Assembly (NCBI GenBank): GCA_016181845.1 | Contig: JACOYO010000008.1 | Coordinates: 1-36,279, forward strand | Origin: Parcubacteria group bacterium | GTDB lineage: Bacteria > Patescibacteriota > Minisyncoccia > Phycocordibacterales > 21-14-all-47-15 | Reading direction: 5' to 3' | Length of the DNA stretch: 36,279 bases | In this document: piece by piece, positions 2,618 to 21,546 of the stretch | Numbering within the stretch: position 1 is the stretch's first letter | Layout of the letters: every line of letters begins with the position of its first letter | Notes under the pieces: model-generated | Seen by the model: the letters and a program-made list of their open reading frames with translations, nothing else | Database searches by the model: none | What the model was told of the DNA's origin: nothing | Position numbers and translations under genes: made by a program

Positions 2618-3244
2618 ATGGAAGAGAAAAATAATATTCACTGGGGAGTTTTTTTACTGTCGGTTGTCGTATTGGTCGCTGTATTTATGCTCGGGTATCT
2701 ATTTAAAAATATATCAATGCAAGGAGAAAAAAACGTAGCAAAAGATTTAGCGTCAAAAACAAATCTTGCGCAGAGTGTCATCATAAAAACAAATGTCGGG
2801 GACATAGAGCTCGCTCTTTTCACAAACAAAGCGCCGCTTACCGTTGAAAATTTTGTGAAATTGTCTGAAGCTGGTTTTTACAACGGCACGCTCTTTCATC
2901 GGGTTATTAAAGATTTCATGATTCAGAGCGGCGACCCGTTGAGCAAAGAAAGCAATTGGGCATTACATGGCACTGGCGGCCCAGGGTATGCATTCAAAGA
3001 TGAAATTAATGACGAGAAATTAGTTCGCGGAGTGCTTGCAATGGCAAATGCCGGACCAAATACCAACGGAAGTCAATTTTTTATTGTTACTGCTGAAAAA
3101 ACGCCATGGCTTGACGGCAAACATACAGCATTTGGAAAAGTTATAAAGGGAATGGATGTGGTGGATAAAATCAGCATGGTTGAAGTCAACGAGCAAAGCC
3201 ATCCTCTGCGTGATGTGGTTATTGAGCAAATCGTACTCAAATAA
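2618..3244 (+). CDS. Membrane-anchored cyclophilin-type peptidyl-prolyl cis-trans isomerase
   Basis: N-terminal TM; cyclophilin core [15 protein letters not shown]...[25 protein letters not shown]. Confidence 0.95.
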
Positions 3245-4142
3245 GCATACTCTGAAACCCATCCCAGCTCATGAGAGTCTTGCCCTCCGGCAGGACTTTT
3301 TTGATAATAAAGACTTTATTGTCAAGAATGGCGTCTTTCACGATGACGCGAATTTTTTTGTCGCCTCTTTGGGCGAAAAAATACAACGATGGCCATCCGT
3401 CATACGCGCACCATTTGCGATAAAGCATCTCGGGGTTTTTTTCTAAATCTGAAAGCTCAAATAATCCGTCTTCTTTTTTTATTTTTTTTGTATAGGTTGC
3501 CTTAGCGTGGTCCTGCTCTCGCGGTGTTATGTTTCCAGCGACCCATTCAGGAATAGTCTCCGCGAGGAGCCGTCCCCCCATCTCCGCGAGCGTAGTTTCA
3601 AGCGTCAAACGCTTTATGGGCAATGGCGTATCCAATATTTCTTGCGCAACAATCGGACCATGGTCAAGCTCTTCATCAATAAGCATAATAGTCGTGCCTG
3701 TAACATCGGCTGAGAGAATAGCCGATTGGATAGGCGAGGCGCCGCGGAATTGGGGCAAAAGCGACGGATGGACATTGAGAGCGCCGTGGCGCGGGAGAGC
3801 CAAGATAGTTTTTGGAATAATTTTTCCGTATGCCGCGACTATAAAAAAATCACTATTTATGTTCGCCAGCCTTTCCGGAACAGGCGATAGTGTTTCCGTC
3901 TGAATATACGGTATGGTATTTTTCTCTGCCCATACTTTTACCGGCGGAGGAGTGAGCAAGAGCTTTCGTCCGCGCGGTTTGTCGGGCGCCGTAACAATAA
4001 GCGCGGGCATCAATCCGCGCCGCTTGAGTTCGTCTAAAACAATCACTCCGAATTCCGGCGTGCCAAAAAACACAAAATGATGGGACTTTTTTGATGGAAA
4101 CACATTCATATTACTATGAATCACGAAACTCTTCTTCATCAT
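3237..4142 (-). CDS. fmt: Methionyl-tRNA formyltransferase
   Basis: [39 protein letters not shown]. True start may be internal. Confidence 0.95.
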
Positions 4143-4165: not shown

Positions 4166-4741
4166 TTAAGCATCCGGTTTTATTTCTTCAATTTCTTTCG
4201 CGTGGTCAATGAAAAGAATGCCGTTCAAATGGTCTATTTCGTGCTGAAAGACTTGCGCGAGTAAGCCGCTCGCGCCCATTTCAAAAGAGGTTCCGTGCTC
4301 ATCATAAGCGCGGATGCGGACTTGCTTGGCGCGATAGGTGTTTCCGTATTGCCATCGCACCGATAAACATCCTTCCGGGACCAATACTTTTTGTTTTGAA
4401 AGTTTTATAATTTCCGGATTGATAAACACCATATCTTTTTCGCGGCATTTTTTTTCAAACGCTGCTTTTTCTTTTTTGGTTAAAATTGGTTCCGGCGTGT
4501 CTTTTGAGACTTTGTCGGTTTCTTTTTTTAGATAAAAAATTTTCCCCGATACGACGAACATGCGAAGCGGAACGTCAATTTGCGGGGCGGCAATGGCGAT
4601 GCCGTCGTCGCAAGTGTAGAGCGCGTCTTTCATGTCGGCAATAAGACGCTTTATTTTTGCGCCTTTGATTTCAGAGAGCGGGATATTTTTTGCTATTTCA
4701 CGAAGCACGGGTTCGTCTTTTTGAACAATTTTTATTGGCAT
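4166..4741 (-). CDS. def: Peptide deformylase
   Basis: Motifs GIAIAAPQ, EGCLSV, QHEIDHLNG; start MPIKIVQKDEPVLR preferred over ORF start 4762. Confidence 0.93.
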   Translation of the reverse strand: MPIKIVQKDEPVLREIAKNIPLSEIKGAKIKRLIADMKDALYTCDDGIAIAAPQIDVPLRMFVVSGKIFYLKKETDKVSKDTPEPILTKKEKAAFEKKCREKDMVFINPEIIKLSKQKVLVPEGCLSVRWQYGNTYRAKQVRIRAYDEHGTSFEMGASGLLAQVFQHEIDHLNGILFIDHAKEIEEIKPDA

Positions 4742-4861
4742 ATATAGTGCAAAGCATAACATTTTTTTGAGCAGATTTCCATTTTACAACTCACTTTTAA
4801 TTTGCGACTATTATCAATAGGTTTCTCATTGAAAGATTAAAAAACAAAAACACAAAGGGGG

Positions 4862-5326
4862 TTGATGACAATGGAGATACCGATAAATTTAATCGGCGGA
4901 GCCGGGTTTTTCCCCGCAAGAAACTTTACCGATACTTCTCAATATAAGGAATCACGCGAATCTTCTTACGAAGAAGAACTCAATATTCTCGGTATAGAAG
5001 GGAAGAGTTCTGCTGATTTATTTAATATAATCTTTGCAATTGAATTGCGATGGATTCTAAATGCGTCTATCAAATGGAAAAGTGTTGGTACCGCGCCCAA
5101 TAGAAAATTTTTGGCGATGTATCAAGGCGTTGAACTTTTTTTATATGTGAATGTTTGCAATGACGGCGCTCTCGGCAAACACACGGCAATTATAAAAATC
5201 GGAAGAATCGTGCGGAGTGTGTCAAAAGTGTCTAGTATCGTTTTGCTTGTACGAGAAATCTCGGTGAGAAACAATTTAGTTTTTCGCAAAAATACCCATT
5301 ATACGCATAGACCTCGCAATAACTAA
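4862..5326 (+). CDS. Hypothetical protein
   Basis: 154 aa ORF between def and priA, followed by a terminator-like hairpin; no family recognised. Confidence 0.5.
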   Translation: MMTMEIPINLIGGAGFFPARNFTDTSQYKESRESSYEEELNILGIEGKSSADLFNIIFAIELRWILNASIKWKSVGTAPNRKFLAMYQGVELFLYVNVCNDGALGKHTAIIKIGRIVRSVSKVSSIVLLVREISVRNNLVFRKNTHYTHRPRNN

Positions 5327-5345
5327 CATATTGCGGGGTCTTTTT
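5310..5345 (+). terminator. Rho-independent terminator-like hairpin
   Basis: GACCTCGCAATA-actaaca-TATTGCGGGGTC then TTTTT. Confidence 0.7.
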
Positions 5346-7239
5346 ACAATAGATGCTCCGGGTCAACATTAATGATGAATGCCGGAGGCAGTGAAGCGAG
5401 CATGTCTGAAAGTTTTTTGTCCGGCCATGATTTTGGCGAAATTTTCAATAGGGCATGCATGGTATACGCGCCACGCACATGCGGCATAAAAGCTGGGAAT
5501 ATGATTGGATGGTATGCGTCAAAGAATTTTTCAAGGTGAGACATGGCTTCTTCCGCGACGGATTGTTTTCCTGAATATGATATTTTGATAAAAAATAAAA
5601 ACGGCGGGTATCCGAATTTTTTGCGTTCAGCAAGCTCATCTTGATAAAATGATAATAAATCTCCTTTTGCTCCCTGCATCCAGACCGGACTTTCCGCGCG
5701 CCGTGTTTGTATAAAAAAAGTTTCAGTCGCTTTCGCACGAAGGCGAAGAAGCAGACGGAATATTTTGTCATTGATGCGAAAATCGGGCATGGAGAATAGC
5801 GCGTCAGCAGAAACAATTGCGACATGCTCTATTGGCTCCATGAGATACGAAAGCGCCATTTCGGTCCCGATGAGAATACTACCCGGAGTATGGTAAAACC
5901 GCTCCGCGATAATGGTCGCTTTTGTTTTTTTTACGGCGTCCGTATCAATGCGAAAAATTTTTTGTTGCGGAAACAATTTTTCAATCGCTGAAACAACGCT
6001 TTCCACGCCGATACCAAGCGGCACCATTCTCCAGCTAAAACAGACAGCGCACTGGTCGTTTGCGACTTCCTCGTGTCCGCATTTGTGGCACAAAAAAATA
6101 CGGACGGCATTTTTTGTGTGCAGGACAAGCGGCAGGCGGCACACGGAGCACGAAACAATTTTTCCGCAATCAGAACATATAGTTGACGCGTGAAGACCAC
6201 GTCTCGCGGCGAATAAAAAGATTTTTCCGTTGTGTTCAATGGCGTTTCTGATGTGCGTCTCAAGAGCGTTTCCTATGATTGCGAATGAAACATTTTTGTC
6301 ACGCGTGGACATATCTACAATGCGGTGTTTGACAGCGGAAAGCGCTCGGAATTGAAGAGATGAAAGCGGCGTGTACCTGCCTTCTGTCTGTTTCCAAATG
6401 GTTTCAGGGCGCAAAAAGAGGTCTCCGAAGATAAGTTTCGCGTTTTGCCGCCGCGCGAATAACTCGGCGAATGTACGCATATCAACAAATGGACGAAAAA
6501 GAGTTTTATAATTTCCTCCGCCTTCTTTATCAACAATAATTGTTTTTATATCGGCACGCGGAATGCTAAAAAACATGCCGGTACCTATCAGAAGAATCGG
6601 ATGGCGCGTTGATACGATTTGTTTCCACGCGTCAAAGAGCTCGCGTTTTGAGATATCTCCATGCAAGACAAACGTGTACCCCTCAATCCCTTTTTCAAGA
6701 TGTTCTTTCACTCGCGCGAGATGTTTTTTGTCCGGCACACAGAAAAAAACTGATTCTTGGCGCGCGAAACTTTCGCGCACTATGCTTTTATAAGTGGCGA
6801 ATCGTTCTTTATCATCCGCTTGTATAACATATGTTTCCTCTAACGTACCGCCATGCGTTGATTCTCCTTTTTCTTTTGAAACATACTGGTGACGGAGCGT
6901 ACCGGCGTTCTGCAGGATTTTTTCTGGAACCAGCGCTTTTAAGGTGGCGCCGGTGGAAGCCCCCGCATAGACGGCCATGTCTTTTGCCGCTGAAAGAAAA
7001 GCGGGGAGAAATAGTTGGGTATTTTTTATGCCGATAATTTTTTTTAATTGAAAACTGGCGGTGCGCAATTGCGATTTTATTGACGCGGCATCTTCGCAAG
7101 CTAAGACGACAGCGTCTTTTTTTTGCGAGCGAAGCGGAATAGACACGAGTGTTCCCGGTGCCAGTTTTTTTGAGGTGAAATAAGATAATAATTCAGGGGC
7201 GATGCCTCGGCCAATTGGAATAACGTGCGCAATATACAT
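5344..7239 (-). CDS. priA: PriA-like primosomal protein N', helicase motifs degenerate
   Basis: Zinc module CSDCGKIVSCSVCRLPLVLHTKNAVRIFLCHKCGHEEVANDQCAVC, ILIGTEM, PDFR, LAERKKFGYPPF; no GxxGxGKT, no DEEH, no QVAGRAGR. Confidence 0.85.
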   Translation of the reverse strand: MYIAHVIPIGRGIAPELLSYFTSKKLAPGTLVSIPLRSQKKDAVVLACEDAASIKSQLRTASFQLKKIIGIKNTQLFLPAFLSAAKDMAVYAGASTGATLKALVPEKILQNAGTLRHQYVSKEKGESTHGGTLEETYVIQADDKERFATYKSIVRESFARQESVFFCVPDKKHLARVKEHLEKGIEGYTFVLHGDISKRELFDAWKQIVSTRHPILLIGTGMFFSIPRADIKTIIVDKEGGGNYKTLFRPFVDMRTFAELFARRQNAKLIFGDLFLRPETIWKQTEGRYTPLSSLQFRALSAVKHRIVDMSTRDKNVSFAIIGNALETHIRNAIEHNGKIFLFAARRGLHASTICSDCGKIVSCSVCRLPLVLHTKNAVRIFLCHKCGHEEVANDQCAVCFSWRMVPLGIGVESVVSAIEKLFPQQKIFRIDTDAVKKTKATIIAERFYHTPGSILIGTEMALSYLMEPIEHVAIVSADALFSMPDFRINDKIFRLLLRLRAKATETFFIQTRRAESPVWMQGAKGDLLSFYQDELAERKKFGYPPFLFFIKISYSGKQSVAEEAMSHLEKFFDAYHPIIFPAFMPHVRGAYTMHALLKISPKSWPDKKLSDMLASLPPAFIINVDPEHLL

Positions 7240-9706: not shown

Positions 9707-10399
9707 GTGGAATCACTTGCTGATATATACACGCGCACCGGTTCTCTCCATCATGCCTACGCCATCGCAGGACCCCGTGACGCGGTGAAAAACTCACTGC
9801 TTCTTTTTTTAGAACACAAAGTTGGAATCACCAGTCGTGGAAATCCCGATATGTTTGACGAAACCTACAATACTTTTGGCATAGACGAAGCTAGGGCGAC
9901 GCGTGGGCATCAATCCAAAAACGCTTCAACCAATACGGCAAAAAAAATTTTTATTTTGTCGGCAACGATAATCACGCATGAAGCGCAAAATGCCCTGTTG
10001 AAAATATTTGAAGAGCCGACGCGCGATACGCATTTTTTTCTCATTATCCCTGACATAGAAATGCTTCTGCCGACGCTCTGCTCGCGTTTGGTTACGATTG
10101 CGTACGACAAAACGCGCGCTGAAATATCTCTAGCGAAAGATTTTTTAGCGGGCGACACGCCAAAACGTTTCAAACTTCTTAAAGATATTATTGAAGATAA
10201 AAATCGTATGGCGGCTATGGAGCTTCTTGACGGGCTGGAAACACTGCTACATAGCTCTGCACATCGTACAAATAGCATGGCAGAATATGCGTTTATTTTT
10301 TCTGAAATCGCAAAGTGCCGAGAGCATCTTCGCAGTCGTGCGCCATCTCTCAAACTCATTTTAGAACACATCGCTCTTATTCTCCCTAGTTTTGCATAA
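9707..10399 (+). CDS. holB: DNA polymerase III subunit delta'-like (HolB)
   Basis: LHHAYAIAGPRD..., ITHEAQNALLKIFEEPTRDTHFFLIIPDIEMLLPTLCSRLVTI. Confidence 0.8.
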   Translation: MESLADIYTRTGSLHHAYAIAGPRDAVKNSLLLFLEHKVGITSRGNPDMFDETYNTFGIDEARATRGHQSKNASTNTAKKIFILSATIITHEAQNALLKIFEEPTRDTHFFLIIPDIEMLLPTLCSRLVTIAYDKTRAEISLAKDFLAGDTPKRFKLLKDIIEDKNRMAAMELLDGLETLLHSSAHRTNSMAEYAFIFSEIAKCREHLRSRAPSLKLILEHIALILPSFA

Positions 10400-10509: not shown

Positions 10510-11916
10510 TTACACCTGCACGGGATAGTCGCCATTGAAACAAGCCATGCAGTAAGAATCACCCAGTATTTTTTTGAATGATTCTACGGGCAAGTAGGTG
10601 AGCGAGTCCGCGCCGATAAAATCGCAAATCTCCGCTTCTTTCTTTTGCGCGGCGATAAGCTCGTCGTAGGATTTCATATCAACGCCATAAAAACAAGGAT
10701 GCCGAATCGGCGGCGCGGCGATACACACATGAACCTCTTTCACAAAACATTGTTTTTTGAGCAGTTCGGAAACAACCCATCGTAATGTGGTCCCGCGCAC
10801 GAGCGAATCATCAACAATAATAATTCGTTTGCCAGCGAGCAGATGCGGTGACGGATGAAATTTTGTCCGTACGCCATATTCACGATGTTTTTGTTTCGGG
10901 CTTAAAAAAGTCCGACTGCTATAATGGTCGCGAATGAGGCACGGCTCAAAAGGAATTTTTGACATGTTTGCAAAACCAAGCGCCGCCTGATTTCCTGAAT
11001 CAGGAACCGGTATAACCATATCCGGCAAAGGTACAAACAGGTCTTGCCGTATCCGGTTATAGTATTTATCCAAAAAACATTCCGCCAGTTTCATGCCAAA
11101 TCGCTGTCTCACGCTATAGATGTCTTCCGAGCGAGTATTCGTGCGCGTAGAAGCTGGGCTCTGTAGATACACAAGCTCAAACGCGCAACGCGCAAGTGGC
11201 GGGGTATCCATGCCCCAGAGCATAATGGTTTCAGCCTCAAGATTAACGAGGCCTATTTTGATAATTTCACCCGCGGCAACTTCACGCACGAACGTTGCGC
11301 CAGCCGCGTCAATCGCGACTGTTTCAGACGCAAATACATACGAAGATTCTGTGCATCCGATTACCAAACCCCGAAATTCGCGCTGGTCGCGGACGGCATA
11401 GAGCGCGTGCTTGCTCAACAACAAAAACGAAAAAGCTCCTTCCAATTGCCGCACGGCGTCAATAAGCGCTTTATCCAAAGTTGTTTCTTGCGACCGCGCG
11501 ATTAGGTGTAAAATTATTTCCGTATCGGTTTCCGTTTGGTTTATGAGCGTATGTGATTCGTTACAGCGAGCTTGCAGTGATGCCAGATTGGTGATGTTGC
11601 CGTTGTGTACGATGGCGATTCTACCAAATTTACATTTGCCATAAATAGGATGCGCGTTTTTAATCGTACTGTTGCCCGTTGTGCCGTATCTGATATGTCC
11701 GATTGCCGCGTGTGTGTCGTATTTGCCACCCATGAGGTCATATTCTTGAAACAGTTCATTCACAAATCCCATCTTACGAAAAATAACCATCTCTCTCCCT
11801 GAATTCAAAAGAGCAACGCCGGCTGATTCTTTACCGCGGTGCTGTTGCGCAAGCATACCTAAAGCCAGAGGTTTGATAACATCGTCACGCGATATCATGC
11901 CAATAATTCCGCACAT
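10510..11916 (-). CDS. purF: Amidophosphoribosyltransferase
   Basis: MCGIIGMISRDDV, HRGKESAGVAL, IIIVDDSLVRGTTLR. Confidence 0.96.
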   Translation of the reverse strand: MCGIIGMISRDDVIKPLALGMLAQQHRGKESAGVALLNSGREMVIFRKMGFVNELFQEYDLMGGKYDTHAAIGHIRYGTTGNSTIKNAHPIYGKCKFGRIAIVHNGNITNLASLQARCNESHTLINQTETDTEIILHLIARSQETTLDKALIDAVRQLEGAFSFLLLSKHALYAVRDQREFRGLVIGCTESSYVFASETVAIDAAGATFVREVAAGEIIKIGLVNLEAETIMLWGMDTPPLARCAFELVYLQSPASTRTNTRSEDIYSVRQRFGMKLAECFLDKYYNRIRQDLFVPLPDMVIPVPDSGNQAALGFANMSKIPFEPCLIRDHYSSRTFLSPKQKHREYGVRTKFHPSPHLLAGKRIIIVDDSLVRGTTLRWVVSELLKKQCFVKEVHVCIAAPPIRHPCFYGVDMKSYDELIAAQKKEAEICDFIGADSLTYLPVESFKKILGDSYCMACFNGDYPVQV

Positions 11917-19269: not shown

Positions 19270-21546
19270 ATGCGCAAAAACACAAAAAATATTTCCGTGA
19301 TGCCAAAAAAGGTTATTAAACGCGATGGCGCGATTGTTCCGTTTGACATGGAAAGAATCACCAACGCGATTTTCAAAGCAATGACTGCTTCCGGCGAGGG
19401 GAGCCGTGAGAAAGCGGAAATTTCTGCTAAAAAAGTTATCAAAGAATTGATGCGCGCTCACAACAATAATCGTGATTATTTGCCGTCTATTGAAGAAATC
19501 CAGGATTTCGTTGAACGCGAATTGATTTTGGAAAACTTTGCAAAAACAGCAAAAGCATACATTTTGTATCGTGAACGCCGCACTGATTTGCGCCGCGAAC
19601 GCGGCATGCAAGTATCGCAAGAAGTGAAAACGCTTGCGCAAGAAAGCAAAAAATATTTTCGCAATCCGCTTGCCGAGTTTGTCTATTACAGCACGTATTC
19701 AAAATGGATACCTGAAAAAAATCGCCGTGAGACATGGATGGAGACGGTAGACCGCTACGCTGATTTCATGAAAGAAACGCTGGCGCAGAAATTAAAACCA
19801 GCCGAGTATGCGGAAATTCGTGAATACATGCTCAACATGAAAGCGCTCGGTTCCATGCGGCTTCTTTGGGGTTCTGGGACTGCCGCGCGCGCGACAAACG
19901 TGTGCGCGTACAACTGTTCGTATGTGGCGCCTTCAGCATGGCAAGATTTTGGAGAAATTATGTATGTGCTTATGTGCGGGACGGGCTTGGGGTATTCGGT
20001 AGAGCGGCAAACCGTTGAATTGCTTCCGATTATTAATAAACAAACCGGCGTCAAATTACCCACACACACTATTGCCGATAGCAAAGAAGGATGGGCTGAT
20101 GCGTTTGTTCTCGGACTTAAAACATGGTCGGAAGGAAATGACATAGAATTTGATTATTCACGCGTGCGCCCGGAAGGAGCGCGCCTCAAAACGATGGGTG
20201 GGCGCGCGTCGGGACCGCGTCCGCTTATAGAGCTCATTGAATTTTCAAGAAGAAAAATGCTTGAGAAGCAGGGGAGACGGCTATTGCCCATTGATGTGCA
20301 CGATATTATCTGCATGATTGGACAGGTTGTCGTGTCTGGAGGAGTGCGAAGAAGCGCGCTCATTTCACTTTCTGATTTGGATGATATGGAGATGCGCAAT
20401 GCAAAAAACGGACAATTTTACCTTACCCATCCTGAAAGGAGCATGGCGAATAATTCGGTGGCATATAACGAAAAACCCAGCGCAACGGTGTTTATGGACG
20501 AATGGCTCAATCTTGCAAAAGCGGGCTCCGGAGAGCGCGGTGTTTTCAACCGTGGCAGTTTAGAAAAGCAACTTCCAAAGAGGCGATGGGGGATTTTTGC
20601 GCAGGATGCCGGCACAAGCGGGCTCAATCCGTGCGGTGAAATTATTCTTAAATCAAAACAGTTCTGCAATCTTACCGAGGTGGTCGCGCGTGCGGAAGAT
20701 ACCGAAAAAGATTTGCTAAACAAAGTGCGTATCGCAACTATTCTCGGTACTTATCAATCAACCCTGACCTACTTCCCGTATCTTTCAAAAGAATGGAAAA
20801 AAAATTGCGAGGAAGAACGTTTGCTTGGCGTTTCAATCACGGGGCAGTGGGATTGTCCGGCGCTTCGCAATCCGAAAACACTTGAAAAATTGCGCAAGGA
20901 AGCCATTGCTGTCAACAAAAAATATGCGAAACGATTTGGCGTGAGCGAATCAACAGCCATCACCTGTGTTAAGCCGTCTGGAAACGGCTCACAACTTTTT
21001 GATTCTTCTTCTGGGATGCACCCACGTCACGCGGAGTATTATATCCGCCGTGTACGCATTGAACGCCACAATCCGCTTTTCCAAATGTTGAAAGACATGG
21101 GTGTTCCATATCACCCGGAAGTCGGGCAAGATGAAAAAACGGCAACAACGTTTGTTATTGAATTTCCGGTAAAAGCTCCTTCCAAAGCAGTGGTGAAAAA
21201 GGAAATAAGCGCGGAGAAATTGCTTGATTATTGGAAAATGCTAAAAGGGCATTTCACCGAGCACAATCCTTCAGTGACTGTTTCTGTTGGGAACGATGAA
21301 TGGCTAAAAGTGGGGAATTGGGTGTATGAAAATTGGGATATGGTGGGTGGGCTCTCGTTTCTTCCAAAAGACGACCATATCTATAAACTGGCTCCGTACG
21401 AAGAAATTTCAAAAGAAAAATATGAAACGCTTGCCACGCAATTTCCAGCGCTTGATTTTTCAAAAATCGTGCTCTACGAATATGGAGACGCCACCGAAAG
21501 CGCGAAAGAGTTGGCGTGTGTCGCCGGAGTCTGCGAAATTCAGTAA
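19270..21546 (+). CDS. nrdJ: Class II (adenosylcobalamin-dependent) ribonucleotide reductase with N-terminal ATP-cone
   Basis: VIKRDGAIVPFDMERITNAIFKAM (ATP-cone), CGTGLGYSVERQTVE, SGGVRRSALISLSDLD, NPCGEIILKSKQFCNLTEVV, TCVKPSGNGSQLFDSSSGMHPRHAEYYIRRVRIE. Confidence 0.88.
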   Translation: MRKNTKNISVMPKKVIKRDGAIVPFDMERITNAIFKAMTASGEGSREKAEISAKKVIKELMRAHNNNRDYLPSIEEIQDFVERELILENFAKTAKAYILYRERRTDLRRERGMQVSQEVKTLAQESKKYFRNPLAEFVYYSTYSKWIPEKNRRETWMETVDRYADFMKETLAQKLKPAEYAEIREYMLNMKALGSMRLLWGSGTAARATNVCAYNCSYVAPSAWQDFGEIMYVLMCGTGLGYSVERQTVELLPIINKQTGVKLPTHTIADSKEGWADAFVLGLKTWSEGNDIEFDYSRVRPEGARLKTMGGRASGPRPLIELIEFSRRKMLEKQGRRLLPIDVHDIICMIGQVVVSGGVRRSALISLSDLDDMEMRNAKNGQFYLTHPERSMANNSVAYNEKPSATVFMDEWLNLAKAGSGERGVFNRGSLEKQLPKRRWGIFAQDAGTSGLNPCGEIILKSKQFCNLTEVVARAEDTEKDLLNKVRIATILGTYQSTLTYFPYLSKEWKKNCEEERLLGVSITGQWDCPALRNPKTLEKLRKEAIAVNKKYAKRFGVSESTAITCVKPSGNGSQLFDSSSGMHPRHAEYYIRRVRIERHNPLFQMLKDMGVPYHPEVGQDEKTATTFVIEFPVKAPSKAVVKKEISAEKLLDYWKMLKGHFTEHNPSVTVSVGNDEWLKVGNWVYENWDMVGGLSFLPKDDHIYKLAPYEEISKEKYETLATQFPALDFSKIVLYEYGDATESAKELACVAGVCEIQ

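Follow-up and report, generated by a model that had tools for sequence, protein, structure and literature searches.

The window analysed here, a stretch of 36,279 nucleotides, is one contig (C9) of a genome of 741,763 bases that is 100% complete and 0.36% contaminated. On its minus strand lies a priA-like gene (5344–7239), which the initial annotation had read as an intact frame encoding a PriA homologue without helicase motifs; the frame starts with ATG and indeed runs uninterrupted for 631 aa. Downstream, on the same strand, is def (4166–4762, minus; peptide deformylase, Pfam PF01327), followed by fmt (3237–4142, minus; methionyl-tRNA formyltransferase, PF00551). The arrangement fmt, def, priA, an EPSP-synthase-family (murA-like) gene and mreB is collinear with that in a relative of the same genus, Candidatus Lloydbacteria (79% identity). 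The interval separating def from priA contains an ORF of 154 aa on the other strand (4862–5326, plus) with no Pfam match; this region is common to the same-genus relative (L183), which likewise has a long open frame there on the corresponding strand. Elsewhere in the window, a 230-aa protein resembling the delta-prime subunit of DNA polymerase III (9707–10399, plus) has a P-loop-like site, GPRDAVKNS, that lacks the consensus glycine and lysine-threonine; delta-prime of Escherichia coli is also P-loop-poor. Glutamine amidotransferase and phosphoribosyltransferase domains occur together in a PurF-like protein (10510–11916, minus), here in a bacterium of reduced genome, and a ribonucleotide reductase (19270–21546, plus) carries an ATP cone and a B12-type insertion domain, its match to the barrel-domain model being weak.

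The homology of the 631-aa protein to PriA is beyond chance, because it matches the NCBIfam PriA models with E values of 4e-70 to 2e-65 (NF004066, 4e-70; TIGR00595, 2e-65, residues 150–612) and the PDB chains of PriA (4nl4) at 1.5e-32, and because the best structural matches to its predicted fold are all PriA. The PDB alignment has the register assumed in the initial annotation. With TIGR00595, the equivalog model for the replication restart helicase PriA, the score is 221.3 bits, below the curated cut-off of 230.35. Pfam recognizes a single part of the protein, the 3′-DNA-binding domain (3′BD; 6916–7239, minus; residues 1–108), by a match to PF17764 over residues 19–105 that is above the gathering score (E 7e-6). 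The PDB alignment and the model place the former helicase lobe 1 at residues about 135–315 (6295–6837, minus) and the former lobe 2 at residues about 411–545 (5605–6009, minus). Between them is the cysteine-rich region (6010–6204, minus; residues 346–410), in which all four of the CxxC pairs previously aligned with canonical PriA are present (C355/C358, C364/C367, C384/C387 and C397/C400). The C-terminal domain (CTD; 5347–5604, minus; residues 546–631) is delimited by the model and by a whole-chain match to PriA. Full-length homology, the 3′BD, the cysteine-rich region, the overall fold and the CTD thus all identify the protein as a member of the PriA homologous family. According to the model, the winged-helix domain that separates the 3′BD from lobe 1 in E. 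coli is absent, and the strand ahead of the motif I site starts at residue 136, directly after the 3′BD and a disordered stretch. P-loop-bearing relatives also lack this domain (L067, from its model), which is therefore not universal in the PriA family.

Alignment and pattern search find none of the SF2 helicase motifs I, II, III, V and VI. At motif I (Walker A) the protein reads YVIQADDKERFA (6796–6831, minus; residues 137–148), with R146 aligned at the position of the catalytic lysine. By alignment, motif II is replaced by IIVDKEGGGNYK (6505–6540, minus; residues 234–245), motif III by GDLFLRPE (6403–6426, minus; residues 272–279), motif V by GTEMALSYLM (5839–5868, minus; residues 458–467) and motif VI by RLRAKAT (5725–5745, minus; residues 499–505). 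The readings given in the initial annotation, YVIQADDKERFATYKS for Walker A, DKEG in place of DEEH (TIIVDKEGGGNYK), FGDLFLRPETI in place of GSATP and RLRAKATETF in place of QVAGRAGR, are exact in all letters; the loss of motif V, where GTEMALSYLM stands against GTQMxxKGxD, had gone unmentioned, as had the missing winged-helix domain and Q-motif helix. The Walker A register is secure, because an alignment of 177 proteins has no gap between the motif I column and a conserved tyrosine four residues on (Y150). A displaced functional P-loop, named at the outset as a finding that would overturn this reading, was looked for and rejected: the pattern [AG]x4GK[ST] does not occur anywhere in the 631 aa, and the AlphaFold2 model contains no such loop. 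ATP-driven unwinding, which had already been thought unlikely, therefore appears very unlikely on the evidence of sequence and model, since there is no P-loop in either, no DEEH, and the motif VI arginines are gone.

The AlphaFold2 model, for which a 90-sequence alignment served as input, has the PriA fold (pLDDT 92.9, pTM 0.91), with a folded structure predicted for each of the two RecA-like lobes. In place of the P-loop there is a two-residue turn, the preceding strand ending at residue 140 and the helix starting at 143. In a control model of the P-loop-bearing L067, a normal five-residue loop lies between the end of the strand at 156 and the start of the helix at 162, and the Q-motif helix of L067 (131–146) has no counterpart in the window PriA. 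The comparison with PDB structures that had been proposed as a check returned PriA for all nine top Foldseek matches, the best being 8fak (PriA of E. coli in a fork complex with PriB), matched over the whole chain with a TM score of 0.84, as compared with 0.62–0.73 for other PriA states. This preference could be taken to indicate a protein locked in the fork-bound conformation. We reject it as evidence of locking because L067 is predicted likewise (8fak, 0.85; other states, 0.63–0.73); judged from the two models, the fork-bound-like pose is a habit of prediction or of a body without a winged-helix domain. Nor does a predicted fold match to PriA by itself demonstrate DNA binding.

The motif loss is specific to PriA, rather than a product of poor sequence or general decay, since other helicases of the same genome keep their P-loops: RecG has its motifs (GSGKT, DEQH), UvrD its P-loop (AGAGAGKT), and UvrB and a DEAD-box protein retain theirs. 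A search of this complete genome for a second, canonical priA, suggested in the initial annotation, found none, the other matches being UvrB, RecG and the DEAD-box protein. DnaB is present. The SSB ends in DIPF, a tail of the kind to which PriA binds in solved structures (4nl8), and the genome has no second SSB-like (PriB-like) match.

A survey of Patescibacteria, also proposed earlier, revealed that P-loop loss is class-wide and not an oddity of one genome. In the order to which the organism belongs, 55 of 60 genomes have a PriA match, and the P-loop is missing from every one of the 58 PriAs examined, those of the window, the same genus and the same family included. In the rest of the class it is missing from 61 of 64 usable PriA sequences, the exceptions being L009, L010 and L011. 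Other parts of the phylum supplied about 86 genomes with PriA; in 57 of these the alignment starts at position 1 or 2 of TIGR00595 and so takes in the Walker A loop, and in the remainder it begins after this loop or is partial. For other classes, the loci retrieved comprise the 30 with the highest scores and 19 degenerate ones picked in addition, and are thus a non-random sample. A maximum likelihood tree of 32 sequences, with the motif columns excluded, leaves many deep branches unresolved, yet places the P-loop-less L016 and L097 with the P-loop-bearing L009–L011 (100/99), apart from the clade of the window PriA (100/100). Because regain of a P-loop after its loss is implausible, there were at least two losses within the class. 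The presence of P-loop-bearing relatives in the same class also makes the loss in Patescibacteria separate from that in Deinococcus. Our literature search for PriA in Patescibacteria, Parcubacteria or the candidate phyla radiation, whose coverage left out most subscription journals, returned nothing relevant.

With TIGR00595 at an E value of 1e-15, about 65 of 142 class genomes (∼45%) have no recognizable PriA, and a rescue search with a lineage profile added almost only weak lobe 1 matches in RecG-sized frames. PriA function is therefore dispensable or replaceable in these genomes. In three class members, from two families (G070, G135 and G120), priA is split or has in-frame stops, apparently a gene loss in progress.

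Comparison of the window priA with its nearest relative, L008, gives dN 0.14 and dS 1.5, hence a dN/dS of ∼0.09, which is approximate because dS is near saturation; dN is similar in every domain, lobe 1 included. Within the order, conservation has shifted away from the lobes, which are the best-conserved parts of P-loop-bearing PriAs. Median pairwise identity in the order, as compared with P-loop-bearing PriAs, is 0.36 versus 0.48 in lobe 1 and 0.38 versus 0.51 in lobe 2 (2b), 0.45 versus 0.47 in the cysteine-rich region, 0.34 versus 0.28 in the 3′BD and 0.31 versus 0.27 in the CTD. The dead site itself has acquired fixed residues. The catalytic lysine column is arginine (R146) in 58 of 58 sequences of the order and in 42 other class members, and new near-invariant residues have appeared at D253 (58/58), R255 (57/58), W403 (56/58), W605 (54/58), R249 (52/58) and Q140 (49/58). 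E239 of motif II and T459 of motif V have been retained, and an Arg–acid pair may replace the Lys–Asp contact in these PriAs.

The order of parts, 3′BD, lobe 1, cysteine-rich region, lobe 2 and CTD, is that of the E. coli and Klebsiella PriA helicases (8fak, 4nl4), from which the window PriA differs by the loss of the motor residues, the lack of a winged-helix domain and an identity of only ∼20%. It scores 237 bits with general PriA models and at most 67 bits with the PRK14873 models, which we take to represent actinobacterial PriA, so that any resemblance to the latter would, from these scores, be convergent. The putative orthologue from actinobacteria has been characterized as a smaller and highly divergent protein (PMC1193525). 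A closer parallel is PriA of Deinococcus radiodurans, a biochemically demonstrated pseudohelicase that has no ATPase or unwinding activity and binds DNA and DnaB (Lopper 2015, PMC4504706); it too has defective Walker A and B motifs, with Lys changed to Arg at the catalytic position. The sequence pattern of this type of pseudohelicase, catalytic Walker residues lost in a gene that is intact and conserved, is also that of the window PriA. In Deinococcus–Thermus, however, the motifs are described as matching poorly, and the lysine of GKT as changed to arginine (PMC4504706), whereas in the window PriA the replacement extends to the entire P-loop and to motifs II, III, V and VI, and new residues have been fixed.

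We consider it probable that the window PriA is a pseudohelicase of the Candidatus Lloydbacteria lineage, which has lost its motor, whose fork-recognition body remains under selection, and which helps to reload DnaB without ATP. E. coli PriA binds forks by its 3′BD, lobes, cysteine-rich region and CTD, and holds 8–9 nt of lagging-strand single-stranded DNA in a pore (PMC10175261); the parts retained in the window PriA are these fork- and ssDNA-contacting ones. The structural loader or fork-binding scaffold proposed in the initial annotation is thus kept as the best reading. The different replication-restart mechanism that was thought to follow from it is not implied, because E. coli PriA whose ATPase has been inactivated by K230A can still load DnaB in vitro and PriA–PriB restart in vivo does not depend on the ATPase and helicase activities of PriA (PMC10175261), and because D. 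radiodurans provides a precedent. The pseudohelicase would bind abandoned forks or D-loops through the 3′BD and CTD, the cysteine-rich region and both of the dead RecA-like lobes, and lagging-strand ssDNA would be held in a pore that the cysteine-rich region forms with lobe 2 and the CTD. DnaB would then be recruited through the cysteine-rich region or the dead lobes, perhaps with the help of a DciA-like protein of very small size, and if a double-stranded lagging arm had to be unwound, RecG, a UvrD-type enzyme or a similar helicase could do so.

We know of no PriB, DnaT or DnaC partner in this lineage. A loader of the DnaC/DnaI type was considered and rejected: within the order, PF01695 gives partial matches, located in frames of DnaA size (in the window's own genome the match is dnaA), apart from one full-length IstB-like gene in one genome. 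Pfam finds no DciA in the window's genome, and among 31 genomes gave a single match, below the cut-off. Directly after dnaA and dnaN on another contig of the genome (C8; L193:8370–8630) is an ORF of 86 aa that appears by eye to be homologous to an ORF of 98 aa in another genome (G145; L195:4175–4471), whose own match to DciA is weak (22.1 bits, E 2e-4, just under the cut-off of 24). These similarities are suggestive only, and the 86-aa ORF may encode a minimal DnaB loader of the DciA type that Pfam fails to recognize in this lineage. A bolder proposal, which we think unlikely, is that the dead ATP site of the order has become a new functional site, in which the invariant arginine, D253, the motif II glutamate, W403 and W605 would lock the lobes or bind a partner; the protein would then act with the DciA-like ORF after dnaN as an ATP-independent DnaB-reloading complex distinct from PriA–PriB–DnaT–DnaC and PriA–DnaD–DnaB–DnaI.

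Recruitment to a job other than restart, for instance to a structural role in fork protection or at D-loops that involves no DnaB loading, would give the new near-invariant residues (R146, D253, W403, W605, R249 and Q140) a function of their own and would accord with the lack of a recognized loader or adaptor of the E. coli type. Nevertheless, we regard it as improbable, given the persistence of the 3′BD, cysteine-rich region and CTD by which E. coli PriA contacts forks and ssDNA, the presence of DnaB and of SSB with the usual tail, and the finding that the motorless D. radiodurans PriA still contacts DnaB (PMC4504706). Far less probable is a decaying relic with no present function. The many class members in which PriA is not recognizable, the broken genes in three members and the disappearance of the helicase motifs are what such decay would produce; a low dN/dS that is similar across all domains is not, and neither are Arg, Asp, Cys and Pro columns that are invariant among sequences of 35% median identity. 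Moreover, the median ORF length over 59 loci of the order is 632 aa, with only three below 590 aa (L055, L151 and L159), possibly through effects of contig ends or gene starts. That the protein still uses ATP at an unrecognized, displaced or altered site, as a divergent and active helicase, is scarcely credible despite the folded lobes and the retention of E239 and T459, given the two-residue turn in place of the P-loop, the arginine that all 58 sequences of the order have at the lysine position, a change that as K230R abolishes the ATPase of E. coli PriA (quoted in PMC4504706), and the missing motif VI arginines.

We therefore return to the motorless fork-binding PriA as our preferred reading. 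A pseudohelicase PriA as such is already known; what is new is the lineage, the depth of the motif loss and the residues newly fixed in the dead site. For annotation there is a warning, in that such proteins match models named ‘primosomal protein N′’ or PriA helicase and yet, from their sequences, are very unlikely to be helicases. In nearly all the surveyed relatives in the class that keep it, PriA is probably a scaffold that marks forks rather than a helicase. Over most of a large bacterial class the PriA motor has been discarded, at least twice, and the fork-binding body is still selected. The proposition that the core task of PriA is to recognize forks and reload the helicase rather than to unwind DNA, supported so far by E. 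coli mutants and one Deinococcus protein, can now be tested in this class.
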